NCBI RefSeq assembly: GCF_000003815.2
Contig: NC_049982.1
Span: 1,746,262 to 1,810,261 of the forward strand
Direction: 5' to 3'
DNA length: 64,000 bases
Source of the DNA: Branchiostoma floridae
Lineage: Eukaryota; Chordata; Leptocardii; Amphioxiformes; Branchiostomatidae
The number at the start of each line of letters is the position of its first letter. Position 1 is the first letter of the stretch. Both the position numbers and the translations under genes were made by a program. This document shows, piece by piece, positions 5,782-52,975 of the stretch. The notes below the pieces were generated by a model. The model worked only from the letters and a program-made list of their open reading frames with translations. It searched no databases and was not told the DNA's origin.

Positions 5782-8700
5782 ATGCCCCGCTCCAGGTCAC
5801 GTCGGGACATGAACCTTCTTCAGGCCATCCTGGACACGGAGGGGTTCGGGGAGAGCGAGCATCCCGGGTCAGACAGCACCCTCAACACCACCTCCAGCGT
5901 GGGGAGCAACCCACGCAACAACCCACGCGCCAACCCACGCTGCAACCCACGCGGGGCAGACCCGCTCGACCTGGCACTGCAGCAGAAGCACCGCGAGCTG
6001 CAGCTGTTGCTATGGCAACAGCACATGGAGCGACAGGTGCTGATGCAGAGGCAGGTGTTGCAGCAGCAGGTGGTGATGCACAGGGCATCTTACCAGCACA
6101 GGAGAGGTGAGGAAGGGGGGAGGGGGAAGGGGGCTGAGGTGGGGAGGGGGAAGGAGGGAGAGCGAGGGAAGGAGGGAGGGAGAAAGAGAGAAAAGGGGTA
6201 GAGACTGAGAAGGAAGAAGGGAGGGAGGAAGGGTAGTCAGAGACAGGTGCTGTAGCAGCAGCTGGTGATGCAGATGTTATCCACAAAGAAAGGGAGGGAG
6301 GGAGGAAGGGAGGGAGAGAGAGAGAGACTGAGAAGAAAGTAGGGAGTGAAGGTTTAAACCTCACCTGTGACACTGGTAGATGCTATGCACATCATTAGAT
6401 GGTGATGCACATGTTGTCTTTTTCACAGAGATGAGGTGATATATGCAAAAGTGATCTCAATACAGTTTAGCTTATCTTTCACTTTGGTCTTTGGTTGCAA
6501 TGTTTGTAAAATATTACACTGTTCCTTGTAAATCAGGGTTTTCTTTCTATAGGCCTTGCCCCAAAGAAGCAAAAATTGAAATCTGATGCATTTGTGGACA
6601 GTACGTTGTTTTTACTGCCTGTCATTCAAACTTTTTATATTTTTAAAAAGATTCTATATTCAGACAAGGGAACAGAAGTCTGGGTGCAGGTGGCCTGTTT
6701 TTTCATTCTCCTGATTAATTATTGACATATTGAAGTCTGGGTGCAGGTGGCTCATTTCTTCTGTCACCTGATTAATTATTGACATGGAAGCTTCACTCCT
6801 GCTGCTCAGTTCGATTAACAAAAAGTCTCCCATAAAAGGCTCGGAAGGAGAACAGGTCTTACGTGTGCTTCCATTGTCCGACCTTCTTCTGTTGTCGTGT
6901 TGAGAGCTTTGTTGCCATGGCAACGGTGTTCCGGAGACACGCCCAAGTCTCCCAGGATTTGGGTTCATGACTGCATGCCTTTGTCAAGTCCTTTCGTCAC
7001 ATCTGGCTGCTCCTTTTGTACAAGATCCTTCATAAGTTGCTACACTCAAGGGGCCAATATTTGAGTCCAGGCAATCGCATATGTGGGTCAAGATGTTTTC
7101 AACACTTGAGTGAGTCATATACTCTAAACATATACATGTATCTTCACTTTTGAATGGTTCTGTACATTCCAGTGTGGCTACTGTTGGTATCAAGCTCAAA
7201 AAATTTTCAAACTGTAGATTGAAGTGATCACTGTCTATTATCAGATTATTTTTCTTAAAAAGAACTAGAATTAGTAGAAAGAGAGATTTAAATTTGTGTT
7301 CATCTGATCGTGAGCTAATCATTGTGCTGGTATTCAGGTCATGATATGCATTCTTTGTTGCCATTCATTTTACTGTAATACATTTAAGACCTTGTTTGTT
7401 TTTTTTCAGGTAAGAGAGGAAGACAGCAGAGAGGGCCTGTTAACATTCCACTAGGGAGTATCCCTCCCCCAGTACAGCCGTATTACCCTGTAGTGGCCAC
7501 ACGTGTTCCTACGCAAGTTCAGAAGTCCCAGACTAAGGTGGAAAGTAGTACCCAAACGGTGGAAATGGAAAAGTTGGCACTGAAAGACAAAGACAACAAA
7601 ATGGAAGGTAAAAAGATAAGAGAGTCTTCAAAGTCAAGGAGGGAACAAGATGAAGACAGACAGAAGGAACTTCAAAGAATCTCTAAGAGGAGAGACAAGG
7701 AGACTTCTTCGAAACATAAAAATGAAGAAAGGAAGTCATCAGAGAAAGACGACAAAGCACAGCGGAAGGAAGGAAAGAAAACAAAAAAATCAGCTGAAAT
7801 TTTAAGGGAAGATCTCAGCCCTGAAGGTCAAACCAAGGTGAGGAGCAGAGAGGCAGATGAAGGTCAAGTCAAGGAGACAGGTCAACATAGTCCAAGGTTT
7901 TCTGAGGAGGAAAAGGAAGGCAGGGGAGACTCAGACTCTGAGAGAGGTCGTAGGCATGGTGATGACCTTGGTATTAGTAAGGATAGAGACAGCAGTCATT
8001 GCCATGGAAACGAGGATCAGCACCAAGGAGACGGCAAGCTTTGTGATGTAAATGGAAATCTTCATAGAGACAGTAGCAATAGGAAGGAGAGTCCCCACAA
8101 AGATGGTGGCCACCACCATGAGGTGAAAGGTGATCTCCATGGAAACGACCGGGATGCCTCTCCACACCGGGATGCGAGTGATTCGGAGTGCTCAGACAGT
8201 GAGTACTCCTACAGCAGTTACAGCGACAGTTTCTCATCTAGCGATGAGAGCGACATCTCCAAGAGCGGGAAGGGAAGCCAGAAGAGTGGAAGCGATGAAG
8301 GGGGAACAAAGAGGGTAACATTTGCCGAGGAAGGAAGGAGGGAAGAGAAGAATGGTCAGGCGGAGGAAGACACGGAGGAGATGCATGCTGAGAAAGCAGA
8401 GAAGCTGAGAAAGGCAGAAGAGAAGGAGGTTAAGGAAACTTCAGGAAAGCGGAAGAAGCCGAGACAACAGAGTGCAGGCAGGAAGAGAACATCCACACAT
8501 CCACAGTTCACTGTCACCTCACTCTCCAGCAGTAAGCAAAATGATTATTTTCTCACCTAAGACTTCAGTCTGCAATGTGTTACCTCCTTGAAAAGGAGGT
8601 TTTGTACTCAATTTGTGATCAATTGTTGTGTTTTCATGATTATATTGGTGTTAGTCTGCAGCGATCTGAGTATTGTGTATTGGATGCATGTAGGGTGGAA

Positions 8701-11700
8701 GTAGTGTAGTAGGATAGTTGGAGAATTGGAGTGTGATTTGTCTAAAGTCCAATGGTGCTATAATGGAGAGGCAGGATGACTCAATAGTGAGAAAAATGTG
8801 TAAACCCATGTTTCCATCCTGATGTTTTTCTAAAGCGCTGACTTACACCAAATACCAAACATCAACAGCCAAGTGGTTTTCTTTGCATTTAGTAGGTCCT
8901 GATTCGATCCTGGCCGAGTCATACCAAAGACTACATAAAAATAAAATGGTACATGCTGCTTTCTCTGCTTAGCACTAATGAGTATGGGAGTAAAACACAC
9001 ACCACTACCAGCAGACTAGCCCCCTGCTGTAGTGGCTTGCACAAATGTGTGGCCCAAGGGCTACAGAAATGTAGATAGGTTACTACCCCTAATCATCTTG
9101 CCAACTATAATTGACTTTCCCTTCCCAGGGTACCTCAGTCTGGTCTCCTCACTGCTGGAGTTAAAGCTCAACCCACACTGCCCCGGGAAGGAGAGGCCCC
9201 GCACGCTCTCCTCCCAGGGGAAGAACATCTCCGAGGAGATCCTGAAGAAGCGAGCGAGGGAAGAAAAGAAGAAGAGAAGGATGGAGAGGAAACAGGAGGA
9301 GGAGGAGGCAGCATCCCCCAGGGAGAAACAACCGTTCCAGCCGTCCGACCACAACCTGAAGGTGAGATGTGGCAGGACTCTAAAAGGAGAGTAACTCCTC
9401 TGCAAACAATAGCACACGCTAAATATGCCTTATTGGATTCCTTTATTTTTATTTTTTTATTTATTTATTAATCTCAAGACAAGTGGGTGTCCCCTTAAAC
9501 TTATTGAGTTGATCTCCAAGGGGGGCCCACTATACAAGAACAACAAAACAACACATGATTACATTCAGTAAGAGTAAAGACAGCCAGTTGACAACATACA
9601 GTATTTACAAATAAACCGAAGCGTGATACATGACATGGTAAGGTATGTTCTTTGCAGAAGTTCCAGATTGTTTGTGTCTAAAGGCTAAATATTTCTTGCT
9701 CTGCCTTGACACAAATCCAACAATCCGCAGGTCCAGGAGTGACTGCACAGGAAGCGGTTAGCCGAGTGGCAGGAAGAGTGGGCCAAACAAAGACAGAAGT
9801 TAAAAATTATCTGTGTCTAAAACCTGAAATATTTCTTTACTTTCACAGAACTTTAACAGGAAGAGTGGGCCAAATGGAGACAGAAGTTAAAGATTATCTG
9901 TATCTAAAACCTGAAAATTTCTTTACTTCCACAGAACTCCGACAACCCCCAGGTTCAGGAGTGGCTGTTGAAGAAGTGGCCAGCCCAGCGGCAACAGCGG
10001 AGAGAGGAGAGAGCCAAACGGAGGCTGAAGTCTAGATTATTTCTGTCTAAAACCTGAATATTTCTTTACTTCCACAGAACTCTAACAGGAAGAGTGGGCC
10101 AAATGGAGACAGAAGTTAAAGATTGTCTGTGTCTAAAACCTGAATATTTCTTTCCTTCCACAGAACTCCAGGTTCAGGAGTGGCTGTTGAAGAAGTGGCC
10201 AGTGCAGCGGCAGCAGCAGAGAGAGGAGACAGCCAAGCGGAGGCTGAAGTTAAAGATTATCTGTGTCTAAAACCTGAGTAATTTTCTTTACTTCCACAGA
10301 ACTCCGACAACCCCCAGGTTCAGGAGTGGCAGTACAGGAAACAGTTAGCCAAGCGGCAGGAAGAGTGGGCCAAACAGAGACAGCAGTTAATGGTTATCTG
10401 TGACTAAAACCTGAATATTTCTTTACTTCCACAGAACTCCGACAACCCCCAGGTGCAGGAGTGGCTCCAGAAGAAACGGTTAGCCCAGCGGCAGCAGCGG
10501 AGAGAGGAGAGAGCCAAACGGAGGCTGAAGTTCCAGATGAAGATGGAGGAAAGGGACATGAAGATCGCGCGGATGATCGAGTCGGATGAGAAGGTGGACC
10601 AGTGGATGAGGGAGAAGAGGAAGCTGCTGAGGAGGAAGTCCCAGGTGAGAGATAAGTCTCAAGTCTCAAGTGAGAAAGTATTAAGTCTAAGGTGAGAATA
10701 TTAAGTGTCAGGTGAGAATATTAAGCCTCAGGTGAGAATATTAAGTCTCAGGTGAGAATATTAAGTCTCAGGTGAGAATATTAAGCATCAGGTGAGAATA
10801 TTTAGTCTCAGGTGAGAGAGATACACCTGTAGCCAAGCAGATGGGTTATTTGTCAAACAGATGGCCATAGCTCAGAATACCTTAGTTTATTTCTTTGTCA
10901 GTTGTTATCAGCTTTGAACTATACATGCGTAAGGATTAATTATCTATTAAAAAAATTTTACTTAAGTCGAAAACTTCTCTAGGAAAACCTACATTTGATG
11001 GGTAAACATGTTTACAAATGAAATGGATTGATTTTTGCAAAACAAGGAATGCTATACAACCCACTAGGATGTGAATCATACTTTTTTTACACAAAAAATT
11101 ATCAACACAGTATTCTTTTCTAAAATAGTTTACCAAATTCTGAATTTGGTTTTCTTTCTGCACTCTTGTACATGTATGTCACTCAAATATGTCAGCAAAA
11201 TTCTTTCTTGTTTCGTGATGGAAATTTGCATCACCTTTGTTCATCAGTAATTCTCTTCCTGTTGTGCCACAGAAGCCCAGGAAAGCTGCCGTGCAGCCGT
11301 CAGTGGGGCAACAGGCGGAGACAGAGGAGACCACGCCCCTTAGCAACAGTAACCAGGGGCAACCAGACCTCCCCACCCTGGAGAAACAGGCCAGCCAGCT
11401 GGAGGAGAGACTACTGAAGGACCTCGGCACAGAGAAGGGGCAGGGGGACACTGTGCAGCCGGCCAGTGGGAAGGTTTGTTATTTTGTTTGTTTATTTGTT
11501 ACACACAACTAGTAAACAGTCTTTAGTTTTGGATATGGGTGTTTTAGTTTACACACCCAGTACCCAAACGTGGGATTGTGTTCTTGCTGCAAAAGTTTGG
11601 GCTACATACAGTAGCAAGAGGCAGTACTCCAGTCAGAAGCTCTGAGCAAAATGTCTGATAGACATCAAAACTAAAGCATTCAAAAATTTACTGGTTGTTT

Positions 11701-14517
11701 GAAAATGTCAAAAAGATTTCCAATATCCTATATATTCTACCAACCAACCTGATAGAATTATTTTTGGATGTCTATAGTCTTGTTTAGTAAGATCCATGTG
11801 TTTATCTGATAGTGCTGAATTGTTGACTGTTATTTACTATGGGTCCTGCCCTTGGTGCTGACGTACTCATGAAATGACGTACTCATTTTCATCTGAGTCA
11901 ATGAGTAACACCATCTACAGGGGCACAAAAATGGTGCCCGATAGAGATATGAACCCAGAACTGAAAGACTCTAAGTCAGAACTCTAACAATCTTGCCACC
12001 ACTCTCTGTGCTATGTGTGGTTGGACCCTGCTAGAGATATGAACTCAGAACTCTAACCATCTTACCCCCAATATCGCCTCCCAGGTTGGAAACTCTACCA
12101 CATCTCCGTCTGACGGGAAGGTGGCAGGCATGGACGATTTTGCGCGCAGGACCGTTCCCATCCGTCCAGGGAGACTGGAAAATTCTGCAGGGGTGCAAGC
12201 AACGGGAAAGTTGCCCAGCAGACCAACGACTGCCCCACCAAGGAGCAACAGTCCGACAAAGCGACGGGGGAAGAGATCCGTGCATCCGATGTCTGCAAGG
12301 AGTGGAGGGTCCGCCAAGGCATCTGTCGAGACGCCTCGGAGCGTTGGGTCGGGGTTGGAATCAGCTCGGAGCATTGGGTCGGGGTCGGAGTCAACTCGTG
12401 ACCCGATGAGGAACCTGAGTTATGACCAGTGGCTGGTGCAGAAGAGGAGAGAGGACCAGCAGAAGAAGATGCAGGTCCAGAAGGAGGAGGTGGATCCGGA
12501 GCTGCAGAGGTCAGGAGAGGCTGTGTACACTGCTTCTTCACTTCGTCTTTTACATCCTTTCTTTATTTCTTCTTTATCTCCTGTGTGGTCTTCTTGCACC
12601 TATTTCTAACTCCTTTTCTTTACTGCCTCTAAAGATCCTTTCCTGACTTCTTTGTTACCTATTAATGTCTTCCATCAACATTGTTGTCTATTTAAACCTC
12701 TATTTTACACTTTCCTTTTTTCCCCCACTGTGGTAAGTTTTCTTGTAATGTAACTGCTGGTCAGTATCTCTGGTGGTAGGCATGTAGAGTTGTAGGCACC
12801 ACTTGTAGATGAAAGGATAATTCCACAAATATTGTCTATTGATACACCAAAAAACAGCAGTTACTTTAGCTACTGGATATGATTTTGGACCATTTTCAAA
12901 ATCATATCTTGTTGCTAAAGTAACAGTTTTTTGGCATATCTTATTATCTGGATAATTAACCTTCATCGACATCATCTATAATACCTATCCTCATTTAGGG
13001 CTAAACGTATGGGAAAAAAAGATAAAGATGCTTTTGAAAGTAAATCATGCATGTGTTGTTGAAAAGTCAGTGATATCTTCCCCTGTTCCCCCCATGCAGC
13101 ATCATTCCTGAGCTGGCGCGGCGCAGGGTGGATCGGGCGACCACAAGGAAGAAGAAACTCGACACCGGCATCAAACAGAAGCAAAGGGACGAGGACTGCA
13201 ACAAGAAGGCAGCAGAAAATCCGGTAGGAATGCAGTTTTATCTACAGTAAATCTGTTAGCTTTTGTCAGCTTTCGATTCAACAATGGAGATATCTATAGT
13301 TATGAAGCATCTATTGGCCACTTTAGAAAATAAAAACATTATTTGCTTCAATCAAATTGATAATGAATGTTATTCTTTGACACACGTTTATCTACTGGCC
13401 ACAGTTAGATAAAGTGAAGTGATATAAGAAGGAATAAGATACAGCACACTTAGCTTTAAATAAGTGTGACAAGAGCTTGGGAATTTCTACTGTATAAGGA
13501 ATCTGATACATTAGATAATGTATGTTGCATCTGTCTTCTATGTTACTCTCTGGGACAGTACCTCAGACCCAGTCCATGGAGTTTGTGCAAGCAAAACTAG
13601 TTCAAGATGACTTTCTAAAACATTTCTTTCCATCACATCTCCAGGACAACAAACCCAGGTTTATTTCATGCTAGTGTTATTCCTCCTGTACAATAATCAT
13701 GCTCTGTCTTCTCTGTCTAAACTAGTGGAAGATCAACTCAACTCACAGTACACTGAGTTTGCTCGAGCCAAACTGGTTTGAGATGACTTTCTAATGCTTC
13801 TCTCCATCACATCTCCAGGACAACAAACCCAGGTTTGTCTGGCGCTTGAGGGACGACCCCACGCTCGAGCGACCCCCGACGACCCGGCCGGGATCCAGAA
13901 GCCCCAGCCCGGGTAAGAAGTCTCCCTCTCCTCGAAGGCCCGCCAGCCCCTTAAAGGAGCCCGCCTTCTACAGGAGGCAGCGTTTCTCCAGGGAGAAGAT
14001 GCAGCAGTTTTCTCAGTCCATGAACTCGGAGAGGCCAGAACCGCAGGGCAGCGACTGCCCCGACCTCAACATGCATGATAGCAAGGGCCAATCACAGACC
14101 AGCATTCCCACAGCTGACCAATCAGGGAAGGGAACTAATGAAGAAGTTCTTGACCAATCAGAGGGAAGAACAGCTGACCAATCAGAGAAGGGAACCACTG
14201 AAGATTTGATATTCATCGACCAATCACAGTCTAAAACAGTGGACCAATCAGAGAGTGCAGATGTCAAGGCAGATAGCCAATCGCTGAGTAAGCCAGGTTC
14301 TGACCAATCAGCACCAGCATGTAAGAAAACTGACCAATCAGTAAACAGCTTGTTTGCAGCCTTGGGACTCTCGGACGAGATTGAGGAGGACATTGACTTT
14401 GAAAGCGAAAGTGATAATGAGGAGGAGAAAGTGAAGATGAAGAACGACCGTAATCTTTCCTCCTCGCAGACCTTCATAACCACAGCTGTAGATACTGATG
14501 ATGGCAGCTGTGAGTAG
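5782..14517 (+). CDS. Charged coiled-coil protein, distantly CCDC181-like
   Basis: Nine coding exons: 5782-6106, 6553-6600, 7410-8531, 9129-9361, 10435-10644, 11273-11473, 12085-12509, 13100-13223 and 13819-14517 (TAG at the end). All junctions are GT-AG with matching phases (1,1,1,0,0,0,2,0), giving 3387 nt and 1128 residues. The start ATG lies one base after an acceptor. The protein is low-complexity and very charged: a Gln/His-rich segment (about 70-110), a Lys/Glu/Ser-rich exon 3 (125-498), a basic helix near 530-560, and predicted coiled coils with W-L-x-K-K type motifs (EWLQKKR near 586, DQWLVQKR near 829). Such motifs recall CCDC181 and CCDC34, flagellar or ciliary microtubule-linked proteins; that link is from memory and weak. 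The last exon carries seven DQS repeats and an acidic end. Repeats crowd several of its splice sites. Confidence 0.7.
6666..6786 (+). repeat. Two tandem copies of a 58-bp unit
   Basis: GAAGTCTGGGTGCAGGTGG followed by CCTGATTAATTATTGACAT occurs twice in a row. Intronic, in intron 2 of the coiled-coil gene. The rest of the intron to 7409 shows nothing I can name. Confidence 0.7.
8880..9075 (+). repeat. SINE family 2, copy 1
   Basis: A B-box-like GATTCGATCCTGG is followed by CATGCTGCTTTCTCTGCTTAG, CACTAATGAG and CCCCCTGCTGTAGT motifs. The same order is found at 56980-57185, where the B box is better (GTTCGATCCCCGG). It ends about 55 bp before the acceptor of coding exon 4 of the coiled-coil gene. 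Confidence 0.65.
9700..10388 (+). repeat. Tandem partial copies of exon 5 and its acceptor
   Basis: At least six partial copies precede the real exon at 10435. Exon-like parts start at about 9707 (degenerate), 9849, 9935, 10078, 10164 and 10300; the last five follow CTTCCACAG or a close variant, the same acceptor as the real exon. Copies at 9935, 10164 and 10300 encode the start of the exon (for example NSDNPQVQEW) but run into AAGTTAAAG or similar with no good donor and soon stop. The inter-copy spacer ATCTGTGTCTAAAACCTG is also repeated. They may be dead exon copies, decoys or weak alternative exons. Confidence 0.85.
10645..10820 (+). repeat. 20-bp repeat of splice donor motif
   Basis: Directly after the donor of exon 5 (CCCAG/GTGAGA) the motif CAGGTGAGAATATTAAGTCT recurs with exact 20-bp spacing. 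GGTGAG begins at 10691, 10711, 10731, 10751, 10771, 10791 and 10811, with a worn copy near 10670. Each unit is a plausible 5' splice site resembling the end of exon 5. Read-through meets an in-frame stop near 10695. Confidence 0.9.
11474..12084. other. Intron 6 of the coiled-coil gene
   Basis: No exon supported. A short duplication of GCTAGAGATATGAACYCAGAACT-like text occurs near 11945 and 12030. Confidence 0.5.
12845..12935. repeat. Palindromic repeat
   Basis: CAGTTACTTTAGC and GGATATGATTTTGG are mirrored after a short loop as CAAAATCATATC and GCTAAAGTAAC. A related single arm lies at about 22788-22825 (CAAAATTATATCCAGTTGC). Probably a small fold-back MITE family. Confidence 0.6.
13556..13833 (+). 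repeat. Duplicated acceptor of the last coding exon
   Basis: TCCATCACATCTCCAG and the following GACAACAAACCCAGGTTT occur at 13629-13662 and again at the true acceptor (13817-13818). Upstream text (GATGACTTTCTAA, AACTAGTTC versus AACTGGTTT) is also shared, so about 175 bp was duplicated. The first copy stops being exon-like after the seventh codon and reads into a stop. Confidence 0.8.
14086..14345 (+). repeat. Coding repeat of GACCAATCA (DQS)
   Basis: Within the last exon GACCAATCA occurs seven times in frame (near 14117, 14153, 14176, 14218, 14241, 14301, 14331), with two more CCAATC motifs at 14087 and 14276. Serine is always TCA and glutamine always CAA in these copies although spacing varies. 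Confidence 0.85.
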
Positions 14518-14965
14518 CTTGTGTTTAGCACTCATGTTTCTGGAGCTGAGGGTTGAGAGAGAAGATCATTGCTGTTGTAAGGCACTCATCTGACTTAAAA
14601 TGATAATGAAATATGCTGAAAAGGGTTGCAATCCTTACTGAAAGGACATTCTTTGCCATTGTTTGTTATTGTAGTTTTCCGTTAAACTTAGCAAAAACGA
14701 AAAGGGAAATATCCCCTGTGGATGCTGTACCTTTTCCACAAGTCATGATTTTATCAGTTAGATTATAGTAGATACTGATGATGGCAGCTGTGGGTAGCTT
14801 GTGTGGTGTAGTGTTTAGCACTCATGTTTCTGGAGCTGAAGTTTGTGAGGGTAAAACCTTGCTGTTGTAAGGCACTCATCTGACTTATACTGGTGATGAA
14901 ATATGCAGAAAAGGGTTTCAGTCCTTATTGAAAGGACATTCTTAGCCATTTATTTTTCCTTTAAC
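14484..14965 (+). repeat. Duplication of exon end and 3' flank
   Basis: GATACTGATGATGGCAGCTG, then TTTAGCACTCATGTTTCTGG and TTGTAAGGCACTCATCTGAC, occur from 14490 and again from about 14770. The first copy holds the stop codon of the coiled-coil gene. A second, weaker pair (ACTTGTGGAACT) is at 15009 and 15253. Confidence 0.8.
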
Positions 14966-16071
14966 TTAGCAAAAGCTTTTTCTGTAAGTTTGTACATGTC
15001 ATTGTAACGACTTGTGGAACTCCTTGGAATGGAGCTGGAAGCTGCATGGCATTTTTGATAGGTTCTTCTGATGAATGTCATGGATAGATTTTTTAGATGA
15101 TTATCCTTATAAACTGTACTATAAGTACAGGCCTTTGAACTTGTTTTTTAAGCCAATGGAAATTTATAATGTAAGCTCATACAATATAATGTACAGATAA
15201 CCCATAGATGATGATGAGGAGGGTGTGATAAGTAAGATATTTTTTGTAAAAACTTGTGGAACTACTTTGAATGGAGCTGGGAGTTGTATAATTATGATTT
15301 TTTTATCTGTTGCATGGGTTTGGCTTGGCCTGCTTGGAAATTAGCTATGGGCAGCACAACAGCTTGCCCAGTTTTGGAATGTGGATAAATAGATTTTTAG
15401 CAAGGATAGTGTTCTGTTCCCTATACATATGTAATATGATATATAGAGTATATATAGAGAGATAGTATATAATATTATATATATATAGAGAGAGAGAGAA
15501 TGAATCTTTGATGGTGTGGATATATATATATTATAGATAGAATAATGATACATAAACTTACATGAGGCAAAGATGTTGCAAAGTATGTTTATTTTATGCA
15601 CATTAATATAATTATAAGCTTATAGATGCTAATATTAAATTTGTGGAATTATTATAATTTGCACTTTTGCTTTTGCTACTGTTGCACGACTGGAAATCTT
15701 TAATGGCAAAATAACATTTGTTTACAAACTTTTGTTTTAGCATCATCTAGTGTATGCTGTTCTCAATATGGACCATGGTTGAAAAAATTGTTCTTAATTT
15801 CCACCGCATGGAATAGATAGAATATAACACATTCTCGTCCTTAGAATTAAAACAATACACATGTATGAGGCTACTAGTGCTGCAAAGTATACTGTACAGA
15901 ATGTGAACACACAGTTCATTTGTGCACAAAAAACACGCATAAAGATGCTATTGAAAATTTCTGTAAATGTAGAATGTTGGATAACAGTTTGTCAGTTTTG
16001 CTCCTGTTGCACAATTGTAGAATTTGTAAATGTTGAAAACATCCCAACCTTCTTTCGATAGGATTTAATTC
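14966..16071. other. 3' flank, no gene seen
   Basis: A/T-rich, with TATA-type simple repeats near 15428-15535. I see no exon. The 3' end of the coiled-coil transcript probably lies here but no clear AATAAA stands out. Confidence 0.4.
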
Positions 16072-29704: not shown

Positions 29705-29738
29705 GGTTGTCGACACGTCCTGTCCAGGCTGCAGCCGC

Positions 29739-30062
29739 ACCTGCAATACTCACACAAAACAGCAGTAGAAGACTAATTCTTTTTTTCTACCTTTCATCCT
29801 ACAATCTGAGAAAATATGTCTTTGATGAAGTTGGTTTCAAGGACCTATTGCCGACAATGTCCTTCATGAAACATTTAACCATATTGCATTTATTATCAGC
29901 CGGACCTGCAATACTCACACAAAACAGCAGTAGAAGACTAATCTTTTTTTTTACTTTTCATCCTACAATCTGAGAAAATAATTCTTTGATAAAGTTGGTT
30001 TCAAGGACCTATTGCCGACAATGTCCTTCATGAAACATTTAACCATATTGCATTTATCGTCA
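29739..30062 (-). repeat. Duplicated acceptor region upstream of gene A exon 1
   Basis: CCTGCAATACTCACAC, AAAACAGCAGTAGAAGACTA and GACCTATTGCCGACAATGTC occur from 29739 and again from 29905. On the minus strand the repeat begins exactly at the acceptor (GAGTATTGCAG) of the exon that carries the gene A start codon, so a spare acceptor lies about 166 bp upstream. Confidence 0.75.
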
Positions 30063-30570: not shown

Positions 30571-32283
30571 ATGGAGAAAAAATCTGCGCTAGTTTTTTCA
30601 AGTTGGAATATCCAGGGCAGTGTTAAGAAAAAGTTTAGCGATGTAGAGTTTTGTAATTACTTTAGAAATAGTGATATTGTCTGTATACAGGAAACCTGGG
30701 CAGACAATTATGTAGATTTTCAGTTCCCAGGGTATAGTTTGTTTAGTAATAATAGATGTAGGAATAAGAGGGCAAAACGTAATTCGGGTGGGGTTGCGAC
30801 TATTTTCAAAAGTTCGTTCAGAAAGGGGATTACAAAATTAGAGAGTAGTTCAGTCGACAGCATTTGGTGCAAACTTGACAAAAAATTCTTTGGACTTGAA
30901 AAAGACCTATACCTTTGCAACATTTATATCCCTCCCGAATCCTCAAAGTCCATACAAGTCGACCCATTTGATACATTATCCATTGATATCTGCAAATTCT
31001 CCAATCTTGGCGACATAATCATCCTAGGGGATTTCAATGCTAGAACAGGATCTGTTTTGGAAACCTATTTTAGTATTGATTCCCCGGATGACCCCCTGAC
31101 AAAAGATGTTTTAGATACAAAGAAAAGGAATAATAGAGATTCTAAAGTAAACAATTACGGTAAACGCCTTATAGAATTGTGCTCGTCGGCTGATTTGACC
31201 ATATTGAATGGCAGATTCGCGGGGGATCTAAAAGGTGATTTTACATGTTATCATTATAATGGTTCAAGTGTTGTGGACTACTGCATCACTCAAAGGTCGA
31301 TGTTAACCGATATACAATATATGAATGTTAATTCTATATCGCCATTTTCCGATCACTGTCACATCTCTTTCTCATTGTCTGCAAAGCACTCTCCTCTAGT
31401 CCTGAAGGAGGATAGCCAATGTTATAATCCTAAACCAACACAATTCATTTGGACTGACGAATCAAAACAATTATATTTAGATACTATAAACAACAAAGAC
31501 ACGCATTCAAAACTGAGAGATTTCTGCAACAAAACATTCCACTCGTCAGAGGAGGCCGTAACAAGCTTCACTGAAATTTTATTAGATGTTTCCAAAAGTT
31601 CTCTTAGAATAAGACGTAAGATACAAAACAATAAAAAGACACAAATCAAAAAGAACAAAATTTGGTTTGATCTAAATTGTTGGTCCCTACGTCAAAGAGT
31701 AAAAAGATTATCTTTAGAACTGAGGAAAGAACCATGGAAACAAGAAACCAGAACGAAATATTTCACAGCCTTGAAAGAGTACAAAAAAATTATCAAACAT
31801 TCTAAACGGAATTATAAAGCCAATCTATTACGTGATCTAGAAACATTAAATGAGAAAAACCCCAAACAATTTTGGTCATTGTTCAATACTCTCGACAAGG
31901 AAGTAAACGGCACAAAACATAACGGTAACATAGATCCTAATATCACAAGTAAAGAATGGATAGAACACTTTCAAGGATTAAATAATCTGGTAAAAAACGA
32001 TGAATTTGACAGTTCTTTTGAAAAAAGTGTCACTGATTCTCTTAAACATTTAGATAAAAACGCCCAAAATTCATTAGATTACCCTTTCACGACACCAGAA
32101 ATTATGACTGGTTTGAAATCACTAAAATCTGGAAAAGCATGTGGTATTGACTCTATTTCAAACGAGATGTTAAAATATGGGGCAGAAAAGATATGCGAAC
32201 CACTGGTCATTCTCTTTAATACAATCCTTTCCAACAACAAATTTCCATCTAACTGGACCACAAGTATCCTTACACCAATTTTT
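30571..32283 (+). mobile_element. LINE, 5' part (APE and start of RT)
   Basis: One open frame begins at 30571. It carries an AP-endonuclease with the expected motifs SSWNIQG, QETWAD, ILGDFNAR and FSDHCHISF, a basic linker, then the start of a reverse transcriptase (KSGKACGIDSISNEML, ILTPIF). The frame is broken after codon 571 by foreign DNA that begins GGCGACGCCTCAGG. The rest of the RT resumes at about 41803. An open stretch at 30166-30399 may be part of the same element's 5' region. Probably L2/CR1-type by domain order; clade not certain. No longer active as it stands. Confidence 0.85.
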
Positions 32284-33284
32284 GGCGACGCCTCAGGGGC
32301 GGAGGCATTTTCTACAGTATTACGATCGCTTTGAAAGAATTTAGAAAATTCCACGAATGCATTCCCTTGGGAATTGATTTTTGGCTAAACCGCAGAGGTG
32401 TCGCCCATACAGTGGTCATTGAAGACTATTCTAGCTGTTATTTTTCTTTGTTGAGGCATTCTTTTTTTTCAGGATTAATGATTTAAGGGAACGGTCTTTT
32501 CACATAGCCGGGAATGACTGCGCTCCTTGCATATCATAAGCCGTACACACGGATTATTACGATGTCTCGCATGCTTTATGAATTTGCAATGGAGACCAAT
32601 ATGTCCCAGCTTTTTGCCGTTATGTCTTCTATAAGCCTGTGCTTTTTACAATATGGAATGAAACGCTGTCAAGTGGTTATCGTTCGGAGTCATAGAGAGC
32701 CTGATTTTGAGTGGTAGAAAAATAAACTGTTTTAAAGAAGACAAGACCAATATAGCACAACTTTTGCCAATATCTTTTGAGCTTTGCTTTTACAAGGTGG
32801 AATGATTTGCTTCGCGAGGTCAAAAAAATAATGAAGACCAATGTGTCACAGATTTTTGTCGATATATTTTTATGAAATATGAAATGTTGTGCTTTCAGGT
32901 GGTTGTCTTTTGGAATTGAAGCTGGTGTGTTACGCCGAAGGACGGTTATACCGGCTATATAGATACAGGTTACGTAAAGCCTGATTTTGAAAAGTTAATA
33001 AGTCACATGTTTCAAACAAGCCATGAAACCAATGGGTTTCAAGTTGTTTAGGTTCTGCTTTGAAGACTAGCATAGCTAGAATAAAGGAAGGACGCAGAGA
33101 CAAGGTTTTCCGTACACTGGGCACGGGAGACTGTTAAGATGGTTTGACGTTACTATATACTAGTAATGCTGGCCTCGCTAACCTCGCTAACTCTCTGACT
33201 CTCTGTCATACAAATATTCATTATATCTCGTGGTCACATTTTGGCGTATCAAACAGACAGGTCTTGTCACACCACAAAACAACG

Positions 33285-38689: not shown

Positions 38690-40912
38690 TTTTATTTTTT
38701 TTTATTCACATTTCTTTAAAGAGGATGAGACGGAAAGCAGACCCTGCTTATCGAGGTCTTCTCCTCATGTACATAAACAAAATAAGGACACACATACAGG
38801 ACTACAAAACGCTAGATAACAAAGTCAAGAGATAATCGGATAACGACATGAAATAAAACAACAAGGAATCAAATAACAAAGTGACGTGTAGCTGGCATAC
38901 AAACTTAGAAGTAATCAAATAAGGTTATAAATCAACTTAAACAACCTGTCTATTGAACACAAGACTTAACTACATGAAAATAAACAAGGAATCAAATAAC
39001 AGAGTGACATATGGCTGATAAACAAACTTAGAAATAATAATCAAATAAGGTTTAGCTGAAACGATCTGTCTGTTTGATGAACTTAAACACAACATCAAAT
39101 AAATGACAGTTCTGAATGGTAGATAGTACTGGGTTTCCCCTGAGTAAGGTTGAACATAAAATATTTTCAGTGGTGTGTCTTGGGTCAAATGGTAAGATAG
39201 TGGTTAGAGATGACAACATATCAAGTCTTGCATCATTGTATAGAGGACAGTGTAGAAAATAATGTATAGTTGATTCGTTAAGGTGGCCACAATTACACAT
39301 AGGACTATTTACACATTTATGTTGGAACAGGTGGAAATTCAACTGACCGAAGTTAAGTCTAAGTCTAGTGAGATGGATTGCTGGGTATCTGGGACCATGN
39401 NNNNNNNNNNNNNNNNNNNNNNNNNNNNNNNNNNNNNNNNNNNNNNNNNNNNNNNNNNNNNNNNNNNNNNNNNNNNNNNNNNNNNNNNNNNNNNNNNNNN
39501 NNNNNNNNNNNNNNNNNNNNNNNNNNNNNNNNNNNNNNNNNNNNNNNNNNNNNNNNNNNNNNNNNNNNNNNNNNNNNNNNNNNNNNNNNNNNNNNNNNNN
39601 NNNNNNNNNNNNNNNNNNNNNNNNNNNNNNNNNNNNNNNNNNNNNNNNNNNNNNNNNNNNNNNNNNNNNNNNNTGAATAAGTTTGTGCTTTTGGCGTCTG
39701 CTGGCAGTAGTTTCCCACCCAACTTCTGACAAGATACTGTCGTTACTTGTTCCTCTCATTGCACCTGTGCAAATTCGAGCTGCAGTGAGCTGGACAGATT
39801 CAATTAGGTTGCAATCTTTAACCGACAATTCATCCCATACAACATCGGCGTACTCTAATAGTGGTCGTATCATAGTTTTGTAAAGAATTTCGAGTGTTTG
39901 CCTCGGAGCAAATCTTGAAATTCTCTTAAGTAAATTTGTTCGTTTCATTGCATTAGTTGTAATGATTGAAACATGTAATGACCATGATAATTTTGGCGTA
40001 AGATGTAGGCCGAGGTGTTTATGAGAGGATACCTCAGTCAACCGAATACCCATAAAATACAGTGGTGGATGTACAACTTTAGTTCGCTTGGTAGTAAAAG
40101 TTATTAGTTGAGTTTTAAGAGGGTTGAATGTAACGAGCCATTGACGTGACCAGTTATGAACTAGTCTAAGATCGTGATTTAGCCTTACAGCTGAGGTAAT
40201 AGGGTCTCTAACAATCTCAGTTAGTGAGGTATCATCTGCAAATAAGCGGCCATCCGTTTCTAAGTTGTCCACCAAATCATTGATGAAAACAAGGAAAAGA
40301 AGTGGGCCTAAAATAGAGCCCTGTGGGACACCAGCACCAATGGGTAACCATTCGGAACAGGCTCCGTTGAGTACAACACGCTGCTCACGATCATTTAGAT
40401 ATGACTCAATCCAGGCAAGGAGGGGACCAGTTATTCCTAATTGTTTTAATTTAAAAATTAGCCCCAAGTGCCAGACTTTATCAAATGCTTTAGATATGTC
40501 TAAAAAAACAGTACGTACATCAAGTCCTTGATCAAGTGCTTGATGCATATTATGTGTGAGATATAACAGTGAGTTGACTGTCGAGTCTCCCGGAGAGAAA
40601 CCTGAATTTCGATCGGTGAGCAGTTTGTTTTCGTACAAGTAGGATGACAAGGGGATATATACAATTCTCTCAAAGACTTTTGATATACAACACAGCAGGG
40701 ATATAGGCCTATAATTTGTCTTTGTCTGTTTGTCACCATTTTTATGGACGGGAATTACATTTGAGCGCTTCCAAATTCCCGGGAAGCAGCCGCCTTGAAC
40801 TGACCTATTAAACAAATTGGAAAGTGGTGCAGCAAGGGATGGGGCAATGTGTTTGAGAAGTCTGTTGCCAATGCCATCGGGTCCAGTGGCCTTACCAACG
40901 TCGAGATTGCAC
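38690..40912 (-). mobile_element. 5'-truncated LINE (CR1/Jockey-like RT)
   Basis: From about 40912 down to 39052 one frame encodes RT motifs: GKATGPDGIGN, NYRPISLL, FLDISKAFDKVWH, GVPQGSILGPLLF, FADDTSL and KHLGLHLT, then a C-terminal Cys/His part (CNCGHLNESTIHYFLHCPLY). A gap (39400-39673) interrupts the 3' third. Sequence down to about 38690 with A/T-rich tail is the 3' untranslated part. Upstream of 40912 the frame enters unrelated DNA, so the element is truncated at its 5' end. Confidence 0.85.
39400..39673. other. Assembly gap (274 N)
   Basis: Run of N inside the C-terminal part of the minus-strand LINE. Confidence 1.
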
Positions 40913-40925
40913 AAAATTAACCATA

Positions 40926-41037
40926 TTCTTCTCTGTACTAATAATACTATGTACAAACATACTGTTGAAGATGATCTACACTTTTTATTATCATGTCCCT
41001 CGTTTATATTGAGGAAAGACAGAAGATTATGGACGTA
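40926..41037 (+). mobile_element. LINE 3' fragment (EDDLHFLLSCP)
   Basis: A plus-strand frame encodes a Cys/His segment (HTVEDDLHFLLSCPSF) typical of the region after the RT in many LINEs. It abuts the truncated LINE on the other strand. Confidence 0.5.
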
Positions 41038-41179
41038 ATTACCTTGTATGACTTGTATATTGTGCATCCTATAATCCGTCTTCTTATGGACCGAACCAGT
41101 CAGATAATGTCACATAGTCCTTAATCTTTAATTCTTTGGAATTCTACATTATTGTTATGGTTATCTTCTTTATGAGAAA

Positions 41180-41802: not shown

Positions 41803-43950
41803 TTAAATCTGGCGACAAATCTAACGTAGATGATTATAGAGGAATCGCCATCTCAAGCTGTCTGTCCAAATTGTTCACATTCCTTTTAAATACTCGCTTA
41901 CAGAAATTCGTTGAAAGCAATTGTCTGCTAGCGGACACTCAATTCGGATTCAGAAGAAAGTGCCGAACCTCTGACAATGTATTTATCCTGAAAGCTCTTA
42001 TTGAGAAATATATTTAAAAAAAGAGAGGGAAATTATATGTTTGCTTTGTTGACATGAAGAAAGCTTTTGACAGTGTATGGCGGGACGGTTTATTCTACAA
42101 ATTGTTAAATCTTGGTGTTGGTGGGAAATTCTTCAATGTATTGCAATCCATGTACCTCAATGTTAACTATACTGTCAGACTACAAAATGGTTTGTCAAGC
42201 CCCTTTGTTTCCACATGCGGAGTAAGACAAGGCTGCAATCTCAGTCCATTATTATTCAATATTTTTATTAACGACCTACCTCAATTCTTTGCTGATAAAT
42301 GTGACGCCGCAATTTTGAATTCTAAATCACTCAACTGTTTATCTTGGGCAGATGACTTAGCCTTGATCTCATTGTCGAAAGAGGGGCTTCAGAATTGTAT
42401 CAATAACCTGGAATCTTATTGCAACAAATGGAAATTAAGGGTTAATGTATCTAAAACGAAAGTACTGGTTTTTACAAAAGGTTCTATTAACAGATTATCA
42501 AACAAATTCTATATATATGGCAAAGAAATACTAGTAACCGACAGTTATACTTACCTTGGTATTCCCCTGACTTCTTCGGGAAAGTTTAAAGCAGCCAGGA
42601 AATATTTAAAGAATAAAGCCATGAGAGCTTTATTCAAACTAAAGTCACTTTTATTCTCAGAAAAGAACATTCCAATTCACCGAGGAATGAGCCTTTTCAA
42701 CAAGTTTGTACTGCCTATTTTACTGTACGGAGCCGAACTCACATGTTTTGACCAAACTTCTAAAGCAATCAAAATTATTGTATCAAAACAAATTCCAGAA
42801 TCTTCACCCAAAACTGTTTTCTCTTCCTTTTTAAACAAACTCCATCTAGAGGGAGGTCTCCCAGCAACTGTTAGGAAGAGTGTGTCTTCGGACCTCACTC
42901 ATACTTACGTCATCCATTTTAAGAAAAGATCAGACAAGGATAGATTATTGAGACTGGCATCAGGAATGAAATTAGAAAATGACAACTTCGCAATTGAAAA
43001 TATACGACTTTCTTCACATACTAGTATCCCAGAATTTGACACCATTGACATGAGTTTCCAAAAATTTTTACTCGGAGTACATGCGAAATCATCAAATGAC
43101 GGCATCCGTGGTGAGTTAGGAACCTTTCCCATTTCGATCAATGCTGAGATACAATTAATCAAATACTGGCACCGTCTAGCAAACTTACCCGAAGATTCTT
43201 TACTACGTGAAGCATATGATGTTGTACTTTCCGGCGAATACGACTGGACAAATCACGTAACTGACATTCTCAACTATAATGGTTTTGGACATGTATGGAC
43301 AAACCCGAGGTTGTATCATGTTAATATGCTAACCGACCAATTACGACTCCGTTTACAGGATATATACATACAAGAATGGTATTCTTCTATCCAGAATAAC
43401 TCAAAACTTTGCATTTATTCTACGCTAAAGGAAAGATACGGACAAAAGAAGTATCTTTCGAATGTACACAGTTTCGAACTTCGTAGAGCAATTACAAAGA
43501 TGAGAATCAGTAGTCACAAACTAAATATAGAAGCCGGAAGATATACTAAAATTCCCCGTGACCAGAGGTTTTGTCCATTTTGCCCAAATGAGATCGAAGA
43601 CGAACGTCACTTTGTTATGGATTGTTCTCGATATAATGATAAACGCACAGAGCTGTTCACATTACTTTCCGCTTGTTCTAAAGAATTTGCTACTCTCTGT
43701 TCGATAGATAAATTCAACTACATTCTGGGAGGCGATAACCCTCACTGTGTACAAGTAGGCAAATATATCCACGAATGTTTATACCGTAGAACTAATAGTG
43801 TTAATGACATGCTAGACCCTATATGTTGATTTAATCATACCTATAGATATCCATATATGTGTGTTTAGTTGTACTGTAAGTAGTTGTTATACATGTAGAC
43901 CTTACGAAAGTCGCTGTACTTTTGTCGTGTCAATAAAGATTGCTATTAGG
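41803..43950 (+). mobile_element. LINE, 3' part (rest of RT, C-terminus, tail)
   Basis: The RT continues with DDYRGIAISSCLSKLF, FGFRRKCRTSDN, FVDMKKAFDSVW, GVRQGCNLSPLLFNIF, SWADDLAL and YLGIPLT, then a C-terminal domain with CPFCPNEIEDERHFVMDC, ending at TGA-bearing codon near 43829. An in-frame TAA at 42015-42017, just before the KKAFDSVW motif, disables the frame. AATAAA at about 43931 is close to the 3' end. This is the continuation of the 5' part at 30571. Confidence 0.85.
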
Positions 43951-44882
43951 CGCGATTCGATCGGACGACGAGTCTGCGAGCTCTAAATTACGAGGAGGCA
44001 TNNNNNNNNNNNNNNNNNNNNNNNNNNNNNNNNNNNNNNNNNNNNNNNNNNNNNNNNNNNNNNNNNNNNNNNNNNNNNNNNNNNNNNNNNNNNNNNNNNN
44101 NNNNNNNNNNNNNNNNNNNNNNNNNNNNNNNNNNNNNNNNNNNNNNNNNNNNNNNNNNNNNNNNNNNNNNNNNNNNNNNNNNNNNNNNNNNNNNNNNNNN
44201 NNNNNNNNNNNNNNNNNNNNNNNNNNNNNNNNNNNNNNNNNNNNNNNNNNNNNNNNNNNNNNNNNNNNNNNNNNNNNNNNNNNNNNNNNNNNNNNNNNNN
44301 NNNNNNNNNNNNNNNNNNNNNNNNNNNNNNNNNNNNNNNNNNNNNNNNNNNNNNNNNNNNNNNNNNNNNNNNNNNNNNNNNNNNNNNNNNNNNNNNNNNN
44401 NNNNNNNNNNNNNNNNNNNNNNNNNNNNNNNNNNNNNNNNNNNNNNNNNNNNNNNNNNNNNNNNNNNNNNNNNNNNNNNNNNNNNNNNNNNNNNNNNNNN
44501 NNNNNNNNNNNNNNNNNNNNNNNNNNNNNNNNNNNNNNNNNNNNNNNNNNNNNNNNNNNNNNNNNNNNNNNNNNNNNNNNNNNNNNNNNNNNNNNNNNNN
44601 NNNNNNNNNNNNNNNNNNNNNNNNNNNNNNNNNNNNNNNNNNNNNNNNNNNNNNNNNNNNNNNNNNNNNNNNNNNNNNNNNNNNNNNNNNNNNNNNNNNN
44701 NNNNNNNNNNNNNNNNNNNNNNNNNNNNNNNNNNNNNNNNNNNNNNNNNNNNNNNNNNNNNNNNNNNNNNNNNNNNNNNNNNNNNNNNNNNNNAACTCTG
44801 CCATTTTCTTCGTCGGCATCAGGGTCATGCCTCCTCGTAAATTAGAGCTCGCAGACTCGTCGTCCGATCGAATCGCGCCTAA
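43946..44882. mobile_element. DNA transposon with 56-bp TIRs around a gap
   Basis: TTAGGCGCGATTCGATCGG through CGAGGAGGCAT at 43946-44001 is repeated in inverted form at 44827-44882 with one mismatch in 56. The inside is mostly N (44002-44793). No clear target-site duplication is visible. It sits at the very 3' end of the split LINE. Confidence 0.8.
44002..44793. other. Assembly gap (792 N)
   Basis: Run of N inside the TIR element. Confidence 1.
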
Positions 44883-48547: not shown

Positions 48548-51500
48548 ATGGCCGAGGCACAACCAAGCAGTCATACAGGTGAGGCTCCGGGCAAACAGAA
48601 CGTTCTATTAGGCATTCTATATTTAATATTGTTTCGTAGGGTTGCTAATCTGTTAAATTTTCTCTTTTGTTTCAATTGATCAATGACATATATGTGCAAC
48701 TTGATATTCCTGATGCTTTTTTGCTAATGCCTGATAATTAATATTCTTTGTGATTGAGACTTATCTGTAATGCTCATAATTACAGCAAACGTAACAATAG
48801 TGTTCCCAGGTCCTAGAGTCGGTGGCGTTAACTTTGCTTTGTGCTGACTTGCAGGAGTTCGTCAGTACTTCTTTATTGTTAAGGAAGAGGTCAGCTCAGA
48901 CTGGAAGGACCTGGCCTTCCATCTTGGATTTGAGCGAGCAGACACCGACAACATTGCCGGCAGAAACCGAGATGACAAGTCTCGCTGTATGGACCTGTTG
49001 GAGGAATGGCTGAAGCGGAACGGAGAGAGAGCCACCATAGAGGTCCTGAAGGAGGCTCTGTCTGAGGCGATGTTACAGAGTACCGTGGACAGTCTAGAGA
49101 AAATAACAATAAGGGGTAATAACAAAAATTTTTATGCTCTGTCTTTTTTCCATTTAGTTGCCTAAAGAGTTGTGAATAGACAAATTAAAGAAATGACAAA
49201 CACAATTTTACTAAATTTGATTTATTGCTGCACTCTTTGAAGCTTTTATCAGAATCCCAATCATGTAAAGGTTCTTCAAGCTTAGGAAATTGTATTTTTT
49301 CGCTCATGTTAATAAGAATAATTTTGATCAGCTATTTACCTCTAAAACTGCGTTTCTAGCCCCGGACATGCAACGACCTTCAAGTATTCAGCAAACGAGC
49401 AAAGAAGAAAATGGAAGACAGCCTGAGCAGGGGTTACAAATAAAAGGTAAGATGTAGTTTGGCTTTAACTTTTTCATTGGTCAAAATATCTTGGCTTTGT
49501 TTTCTTTTGTATTTTTTACGAAGTTACAAAGTTAGCCTTTCAATGTCTGCCTGACTTTGCACCATTACACATTGGTCACTTTAACTACTTTAGTAGCCGT
49601 TCCCTCAAATCTAACCTAATCTGATTTGAAATTACAGTAACCGAATAACTAATTTTTGTGCTTGATTCCAGATGTTTTCCAAGAAGCCGTGAAGGGGTTT
49701 TACGAGCTAAGGCTGGCAAAATTTAAACCTCTGATCTGGAATGACAACTTCACACTTAACCTTGTTGATATCTTTACGGAGTTAGAGTTAATAGGGACAA
49801 GGCAACAGAGACAAAACGAACAGAGAAGAAAGTTACATTCTTTAGACGACTTGTTCAAAACCGATATCACAGGGCTGTCGACTGCACCAAGGTGCATTCT
49901 GATTGAGGGTGAAGCCGGAGGGGGGAAGACAACGTTTCTGTCCAAAGAAGCCCTAGATGCCGTCTCACAGAAAACAGAGCTGGGCAGACGACATGACCTC
50001 GTCTTGTTGATCCGACTCCGGGAGGTGAGAGAGGGGGAGACCATGGAGGAGATGGTGTGGGACCAGTGTGTTCCCGAAACAACTGAAGGTGTTGATGCAC
50101 AATCCATCAGAGCAATCCTACAGAGGAGCGAGTCCCGTGTGCTTTTCCTCCTAGATGGGTATGATGAGCTGCGACCTGAGGCTAGGGAAGCCAGGAAGGC
50201 CATTCCAAAACTACTTTCTGGCAAGATATACCCCAAGAGCACGATCGTGATCACCTCCCGACCCTCAGCAGGAGTGCAGCCGTACACTCAGCCGGACTGT
50301 TACGTTAAAATCATGGGCTTCTCTCCTGACAATATGGAAAAATATGTGCAGCAATATTTTAGCATCACAGAAAACCCAGGTCAAGCAGAGGAGCTCGTCA
50401 CAATGCTGAAAGAAGAGCATCCTGTTGTGGACTTAATCCACACACCGATTTTCCTGATGTTGGTCTGTCTGCTGTGGGAAGAGGATCCAAACATGGTCTC
50501 CAATGGCACCATGACGGGAGTCTACAGTGACCTGCTGACCTGTCTGGGTAGAAAGCATTGCAAGCGGGAAGGAGTGGACATGCCAACAGATGACCTGCCT
50601 ACAGACCTGGTCGATGCATTGATGCAGCTTGGCAAGCTTGCGCTAGAGGCGCTGCTGAAAAATGAGACTCTACTTGACGTGTCGGATGTAGAGAGAACAT
50701 GTGTAAATTGGCAGCTACTTCTGAATCTTGGTGTGCTCTCCTTGGAAGTCTCTACCTCCAAACTGCATCCTAGAAAACAGCTGAACTTTTCACACAGGAC
50801 CATGCAAGAGTTCCTGGCCGGACGGTACGTCGCTCATGCTCTGATGAATAAAGACATCTCTGAGATGATGCAGCTCACTTCCATTTACAAGGCGCTTGAA
50901 CTCAGAAACTTGCTTCTGTTTACATGTGGCTGCGATTTACGTGCCGCACAAATTGTGCTAAATGAGTTGATCAGTCTAAGAAGCCAGGAATTCGTGAATC
51001 TAAGACCAGAGCACCTTGGCAAGCCAGGTTGGCAGGTGCCAGTATCAGATCGGGTGTGGGGACGTGCTGAAACATACAGACAATTCGTCCTTCTCTGTCT
51101 GGATATCCTTCATGAAAGAAAGCAGCCAGACGTATTGGAGGCTGTTAGCAAAGCCCTGCCTTATTTAGTCTTATTCCAGTTCAAGAACAGAAAGCGACAA
51201 GCTGCTTTTAAGTACTACCTGGAAAACATCCAGACAGTGGAACTTCCGGAGAGAATAATACTCAGGATGGTTGAAATTGATCAACCATGTGGTCAGTACC
51301 TGGAGGAGACATTCACATCTCCTATTCCAGATCTACGCTTGGACCTTCAATTAGCGCATAAACCGCTTATGTCACCTGATCAGACAAGCAGACTGATTTC
51401 AGGCCTAAGGAATGTTCCGGCCCTAAGGGCTCTGGATCTGACAAGTTCAAATCTAACAGTGTCATCTGTCAAGCCGCTTGTGCGGGGATTTCGACACATT

Positions 51501-52975
51501 CCCTTTCTAGAGGAGCTGGATATTTCTTGCAATCCGGAATTAGGTGATGCTGGGATTTACGTGTTAACGTATGGACTGTCTAGTGTTCCACACCTGGCTG
51601 TACTCAGTCTGGGCTTAGTCTCCATGACAGGATGGGGCATGCTTTTTCTGGCTCACCAAGTTCGCCGCTTAGTGGCACTGAGAGTTCTGGACATAAGTGC
51701 AAATGGTATAAGTGACACCGGGCTGGGATTTCTCATAGACGCCCTCCCCTTCCTCACTGCCTTGCAGGAGTTGATCTTATGTAACACTGGTATTAGACTT
51801 AGAGGCATACGCACACTGGTCCCTACACTGAGTAAACTAAAGGGACTGATTAAACTAAATGTTAGTGACAATGCCATTGGAGACATCGGACTAGAATGGC
51901 TTACTGACATTCTTCCCCTCCTTACGGCCATGAGGGTGTTGGTTTTAAATGAGATAGGTTTCACTGACAGGGGAATGTCAGCTCTGGTCAAAGCTCTGCC
52001 TCACCTGGTGGAATTGCTGGTGTTGGATGTGGGATTTAACCACATAGGAGACTCGGGGATTGTCTCACTGGTGGAAACACTCGGTCAGTCCAGCAGAGTA
52101 AACAGGGAACGAAGTCTGATCAACGCTCCTCGCAACAACACCAACCTGCGTGAACTACACATGGGGAACAATAGTAGAGTAACAGGAGTCGGACTAGGGA
52201 GGGTCGCACAGCTCATCAGCGCACTGCCGGCACTGATGAAGCTGGATATGTCTGGTTACGACTTCCCACATGCATACATGCGTGACACCGCTGCCGTGGA
52301 ACTGGCCGAGGCTCTGCCCAGACTCCCTGCCCTGGAGTGGCTCATGATAAGGAACATCTGCATGGACCCTGCAGGGTTCCAGGCAGTGGTGCAGGCCGCT
52401 GAGGAACACCCCGAACGTACTCTGTGGAAATTGAAGTAAGTTAGTCTTTGATGTAGCTGAAATATGAAACTGCTACGTTAATACAATGTACTTTCCAAAC
52501 GTCGGTAGATTATTGCGTGCGGACTGCGTGTGAGAAAACATGTTGTACACATTTCCTAACCTGATAAACCTATTAACAAAGTTTCATTTCATTAAATCAA
52601 GTAATTATTTACACATGTATTTTGAAAAAAAAACCCACTAAAAGTACCGTGTAGGTGCTTGAGACTCTTTTTGCACAACCATTGCTTTATTTCAATCAAC
52701 GTTTCGGTTGCCGCCTGTCACCTTTCTCGGTACAATTCTGACTGGTTCACATTGCACACTAGGTGTCGCTTTGACTTAGTGACAGTCCAACCTGATGAAA
52801 CTATTCATGGATAAATGTTCGTTCTTCAATTTGCAGGTACAGCAGGAGTGGTCTTCCCCGAGGAGCAGACACCAGCGCTAGATGTCTGGAGTTCGAGGGG
52901 CATATGTTTCCGTTGGGTCGGTTCAGAGCTCCGGTGATGGCGACATTTAGAAAAATGCGCATATTTTTGCTTTAA
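48548..52975 (+). CDS. Death-domain NACHT-LRR protein (NLR)
   Basis: Five coding exons: 48548-48578 (ATG), 48855-49115, 49360-49446, 49672-52435, 52837-52975 (TAA). Phases 1,1,1,2 match and the sum is 3282 nt, 1093 residues. Exon 2 encodes a Death-type domain (about 11-97; DWKDLAFHLGF, IAGRNRDD, LLEEWLKRNG). The NACHT domain has Walker A GEAGGGKTT (206-214), Walker B LFLLDGYDEL (284-293) and TSRPS (321-325); SHRTMQEFLAGRYVA near 498-512 fits the helical region after it. Leucine-rich repeats follow from about 690 to 1050 (LRALDLTSSNL, LEELDISCNPEL, LRVLDISANGI). NLRs are cytosolic sensors that oligomerise with ATP; a Death adaptor partner is expected. Exon 4 could stop at 52437-52439, but GAA/GTAAGT and an open last exon argue for splicing there. 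Upstream untranslated exons are possible. Confidence 0.88.

Follow-up and report, generated by a model that had tools for sequence, protein, structure and literature searches.

Tandem duplications spanning both boundaries of one exon in a predicted gene of Branchiostoma floridae

In a stretch of 64,000 nucleotides from Branchiostoma floridae (contig NC_049982.1, positions 1,746,262 to 1,810,261 of the forward strand; hereafter the window), exon 5 of a predicted nine-exon gene is preceded by partial copies of its own acceptor region and followed by copies of its own donor. Upstream, the copied segment reaches from the intron tail into the exon, with a 12-bp direct match marking its limits. Downstream, copies of a 20-bp unit that straddles the exon end follow one another at a period different from the upstream one. 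These features are best explained as a two-sided "mirage", in which minisatellite-like tandem duplications happened to span both boundaries of exon 5; it is probable, and we hold this with good confidence, that they are tolerated and not functional.

Host gene and repeat arrays

The host gene model (Table 1) was built by hand from AG/GT boundaries and phase. As predicted from sequence, it comprises 1128 codons in a single open frame with consistent phases and one stop at the end. The full-length predicted protein had no match in a Pfam scan at E 0.1, none of six pieces of it scored above a curated Pfam cut-off, and searches of PDB sequences returned matches at E 4 and 0.76 only. Exon 5 alone gave a sub-threshold similarity to CCDC34 (E 0.007, 16.5 bits; cut-off 35), and the predicted gene has no confident family assignment. 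Smaller repeats occur elsewhere in the same gene model. An intron contains about two repeats of a 57-bp unit (6675-6785, Tandem Repeats Finder), and the acceptor region of exon 9 has one upstream copy at 13605-13662 (+), a second, smaller boundary duplication in the host gene (53 identities, 3 mismatches and 2 gaps relative to the boundary at 13819). A further duplication affects the last exon: its end, with the stop codon region, and the sequence beyond it recur downstream (about 14488-14690 and 14768-14980).

Table 1. Coordinates of the predicted host gene, exon 5 and the features of its two arrays (positions in the window).
Feature	Position	Strand	Description
Host gene, nine-exon predicted model	5782..14517	+	hand-built
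Host gene exons 1-5	5782-6106, 6553-6600, 7410-8531, 9129-9361, 10435-10644	+	
Host gene exons 6-9	11273-11473, 12085-12509, 13100-13223, 13819-14517	+	
Authentic exon 5 (of 9)	10435..10644	+	210 nt, phase 0/0; sole full-frame pairing among 54
12-bp sequence, left outer edge of upstream array	9657..9668	+	intronic; exact match to 10527-10538
Copy c0	9656..9798	+	short type; acceptor AG changed to AA; 12-bp match at start
Copy c1	9799..9884	+	short type, truncated inside exon head; CAG/AAC acceptor ends 9848
Copy c2	9885..10030	+	long type; CAG/AAC acceptor ends 9934; possible microexon 9935-9952
Copy c3	10031..10113	+	short type, truncated inside exon head; CAG/AAC acceptor ends 10077
Copy c4	10114..10248	+	long type, 10-nt gap near start; CAG/AAC acceptor ends 10163
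Copy c5	10249..10387	+	short type; CAG/AAC acceptor ends 10299; possible microexon 10300-10317
12-bp sequence inside exon 5	10527..10538	+	right edge of similarity, the end of the copied segment
Donor array	10645..10825	+	eight further GTGAGA sites; 20-bp register from 10691

Upstream of exon 5 there are six partial copies of a segment made up of intron tail, acceptor and exon head, in agreement with the earlier note on this DNA, which had counted about six. Local alignment of 10385-10644 to 9361-10384 gave six non-overlapping matches with scores of 74 to 225. Control maxima were 29 (200 Markov-1 shuffles) and 26 (47 stretches elsewhere in the window), so the copies are far above chance. The acceptor AG is kept in five of the six copies, all but c0, and reads CAG/AAC there as it does at the authentic acceptor ending at 10434. 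The acceptors named in the earlier note (9934, 10163, 10299 and 10434) are all confirmed, but they are four of six, as 9848 and 10077 were missing from its list. Over positions -20 to -4, the authentic acceptor has 13 pyrimidines out of 17, and the five AG-bearing copies have 12-14.

In alignment, the exon heads fall into two types, the short type being 9 nt shorter and having a different tail. The authentic exon 5 is of the long type, and from c1 onward the two types alternate strictly up to and including it. Divergence of the exon part is 0.028-0.194 within types and 0.170-0.316 between types, ranges that touch, and it is lowest between copies at equivalent dimer places (0.028 for c1 vs c3, 0.071 for c2 vs c4). 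Tandem Repeats Finder, which detects the arrays on both the acceptor side and the donor side, reports periods of about 86, 135 and 229 bp upstream. The alternation of two exon-head types indicates that the upstream array probably grew as dimers. The 12-bp edge sequence occurs only twice in the window when both strands are searched, and finding it at each outer edge agrees with the trace that tandem duplication between short direct repeats would leave.

Downstream of exon 5, GTGAGA donors follow positions 10644 (authentic), 10669, 10691, 10711, 10731, 10751, 10771, 10791 and 10811. The seven from 10691 to 10811 are in register, two of these units matching the 20-base consensus fully and the other five departing from it. 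At 10669 the site is out of register and reads CAA/GT. The earlier note had described seven exact 20-bp donor copies at 10690 to 10810; the count of seven holds for the units in register, but exactness holds for two of them, an eighth GTGAGA is present at 10669, and the positions were off by one. On the + strand, the window contains CAGGTGAGA seven times, once at the authentic donor and six times in its copies, and nowhere outside this region. The authentic donor and six copies share a predicted U1 pairing energy of -11.1 kcal/mol; the values at 10691 and 10669 are -9.6 and -4.6. The difference in units (20 bp downstream; about 86, 135 and 229 bp upstream) supports separate formation of the arrays on the two sides, as the earlier note had proposed.

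Reading frame, constraint and the distribution of duplications

Pairing of the six acceptors with the nine donors gives 54 possible versions of exon 5. Only the authentic pairing (10434/10644) keeps the full frame; an early stop appears in the other 53, and exons from copy pairings are 235 to 963 nt long, compared with 210 nt for the authentic exon. This frame analysis speaks against protein isoforms made from the copies and the array donors, and alternative exon choice, which the earlier note had suggested, is not supported as a source of protein variety for such pairings. Nor do the upstream copies resemble an array of mutually exclusive or alternative exons made of complete exons, since they contain the exon head only and have no strong donor. 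Exceptions are two in-frame options of 18 nt and one of 93 nt, all with weak donors. Between 9849 and 10434, three GT sites reach a U1 energy of -6 kcal/mol or lower, and all are CAG/GTTCAG at -6.3 (authentic donor -11.1). Two of these, in c2 and c5, end the 18-nt in-frame exons, which encode NSDNPQ; the third, in c4, gives no in-frame exon. The 93-nt option is in c5 and has a donor energy of -2.6. RNA pairing of the acceptor array with the donor array, of the docking type, was also considered and rejected, as the predicted duplex (-68.9) is weaker than the shuffle mean (-79.9) and 92 of 100 shuffles were at least as strong in a crude single-duplex model.

Sequence comparison gives weak evidence for constraint on the copies. 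The six substitutions counted in the 20-bp donor units are confined to positions 1 to 7 (P 0.002), a zone that was picked post hoc. When the donor core was preset at -3 to +6, one of six substitutions fell inside it and avoidance was not significant (P 0.16). Acceptor columns, with c0 omitted, were not significantly quieter than exon-head columns (5/25 vs 30/83, p 0.15). In the c4/c5 pair, the intron tail is quieter than the exon head (4/49 vs 21/76, p 0.011). Differences between c0 and the real exon are distributed 4/3/12 by codon position (P 0.006), but this excess at third positions is explicable by constraint on the real exon alone, and a coding history of the copies is not claimed.

Local duplications are common across the window, and the splice sites of the host gene are not visibly favoured. 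Duplications with a score of at least 45 that cross internal splice sites were compared with those that cross grid points. They cross 3 of 16 host-gene boundaries. The corresponding counts for grid points are 112 of 1197 over the window (p 0.19) and 41 of 225 within the gene region (p 0.59); with 16 boundaries, both comparisons have little power. A duplication process that targets splice sites was therefore set aside, with the same reservation about power, as no enrichment was seen in the window. Further repeats in the window include a minisatellite at 58076-59279 with about 32 copies of a 38-bp unit (Tandem Repeats Finder) and a 164-bp unit in two copies with 95% matches at 29732-30057 (-) (Tandem Repeats Finder). 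The latter unit ends at an acceptor-like GTATTGCAG (-) beside a short open stretch, and it is possibly another boundary duplication, the exon having been guessed by eye. NACHT and leucine-rich repeat domains, as in innate immune receptors, are encoded by a long open frame at 49656-52439 (+); such gene content, like the style of the repeats, fits a lancelet genome. Open frames of retroelement type occur at 30571-32334 (+, endonuclease domain) and 42054-43829 (+, reverse transcriptase domain), and a retroelement-type frame at 39052-41067 (-), reverse transcriptase-like as judged by eye, is interrupted by a run of N.

Origin of the arrays and alternative readings

Tandem duplication between short repeats could account for both arrays, each of which may have been made by unequal exchange or by replication slippage. 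For the upstream array, the 229-bp period and the alternating types are most simply explained by a stepwise history of block duplication: after a first duplication, a block of two units would have been duplicated, the short type would have undergone an internal deletion, and a block would then have been duplicated once more. The copies would have decayed afterwards. The earlier note had offered a scar of repeated slippage as one of its explanations, and repeated duplication is supported by the different units, the exon-head types, the 12-bp edge match and the diverged donor units.

Exon definition would favour the innermost pair of splice sites, which encloses the shortest exon. Since no acceptor copy extends beyond the exon head and the donor copies include nothing but the exon tail, the authentic sites of exon 5 are innermost, and this pair, which encloses 210 nt, would presumably still be the one chosen by splicing. 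Any leakage to other pairings would lead to an early stop and could be removed by nonsense-mediated decay or by selection.

The copies might instead act as decoys, competing with the authentic sites and diverting transcript into stop-containing mRNA so as to lower or tune expression. Such competition is physically possible because the predicted U1 pairing of six of the eight donor copies is as strong as that of the authentic donor and the pyrimidine content of the acceptor copies is similar to that of the authentic acceptor. The early stops in 53 of the 54 pairings would provide the means, and the changes in the donor units avoid the last 13 positions, as seen post hoc. However, this avoidance loses significance when the donor-consensus zone is used, the acceptor columns have no significant constraint, and published lancelet mirages are reported to splice normally; we consider regulation by decoys unlikely. 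Gain of an intron or exon, in which the 18-nt microexon of c2 and c5 is spliced in or could potentially be, as has been considered for the globin mirages, has a slightly smaller chance of being correct. A model of this type has been proposed (PMC3087553), and the two 18-nt options ending in CAG/GTTCAG and the 93-nt option would be its raw material, but their donors pair weakly compared with the authentic donor and the CAG/GTTCAG site of c4 yields nothing in frame.

Collapse or false expansion of repeats during assembly is a further explanation, and one to which we give very little credence. The window has four runs of N (39400-39673, 44002-44793, 54213-54685 and 62112-62211), which mark it as a draft scaffold, and aberrant assembly of a mirage has been reported for a draft genome (PMC3087553). 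Nevertheless, misassembly is an unlikely source of the arrays, judging from the letters of the assembly, because the copies differ from one another by substitutions and indels, and the left edge has the short match expected from a real duplication. Even so, the precise number of copies could be inaccurate or could differ between haplotypes. The least probable of these readings, and a highly speculative one, is a paired splicing rheostat, in which both arrays would be kept and their fast-changing copy number would set the share of stop-containing mRNA, or occasionally add NSDNPQ microexons, thereby tuning the protein between individuals. Tolerated duplications across both boundaries of exon 5 remain our preferred explanation.

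Comparison with known lancelet mirages

Mirages are boundary-spanning minisatellites described in the lancelet globin genes BflGb6 and BflGb9, the name being cited from Adh3 (PMC3087553). BflGb6 has tandem copies of an intron end and exon start with units of 150-160 bp, BflGb9 has tandem copies of an exon 3' boundary (157 bp), and the units of the Adh3 mirage are cited as 10-72 bp (PMC3087553). Data from globin RT-PCR and from Adh3 suggest that regular splicing is undisturbed by mirages, copy numbers differ between two haplotypes, and repeats of this type have been proposed as seeds of introns (PMC3087553). Given the predicted gene model, the repeat unit spans an exon-intron boundary in both arrays of exon 5, which is the defining property of a mirage. 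As in the globin and Adh3 mirages, AG or GT signals are present in many copies and each unit is partly exonic. In the globin mirages as described in PMC3087553, acceptor repeats belong to one gene and donor repeats to another; exon 5 has arrays at both ends, and their units differ.

Similar repeats have been reported in other settings. In lancelet PGBD5, imperfect tandem repeats of 60 bp and 108 bp lie over 5' and 3' splice sites of adjacent exons, and their copy number varies between two assemblies (PMC3902484). This gene resembles the present case in having imperfect tandem repeats on 5' and 3' splice sites within one gene. It differs in that the units are larger and are at exons 3 and 4, with splicing taken from predicted sites and cDNA covering the N-terminus only. 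Introns can also be gained through tandem genomic duplication of AGGT segments (PMC3443670). There, too, tandem duplication copies splice-site sequence; at exon 5, by contrast, no new intron is evident and the copies are inside existing introns.

A single exon with separate arrays at both ends is not described in the available text of PMC3087553 or PMC3902484, and a search of the open-licence literature found no further lancelet reports of such repeats; as an argument for absence this is weak. The both-ended mirage on exon 5 is a modest extension of the known lancelet mirages. With several acceptors and donors of comparable predicted strength around one exon, it provides a natural test of splice-site choice, and its geometry, in which the whole exon is enclosed by the innermost pair only, leads to a direct prediction for exon definition. 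The edge match and dimer structure also reveal a way in which boundary repeats can enlarge, a point relevant to the proposal that mirages seed introns.
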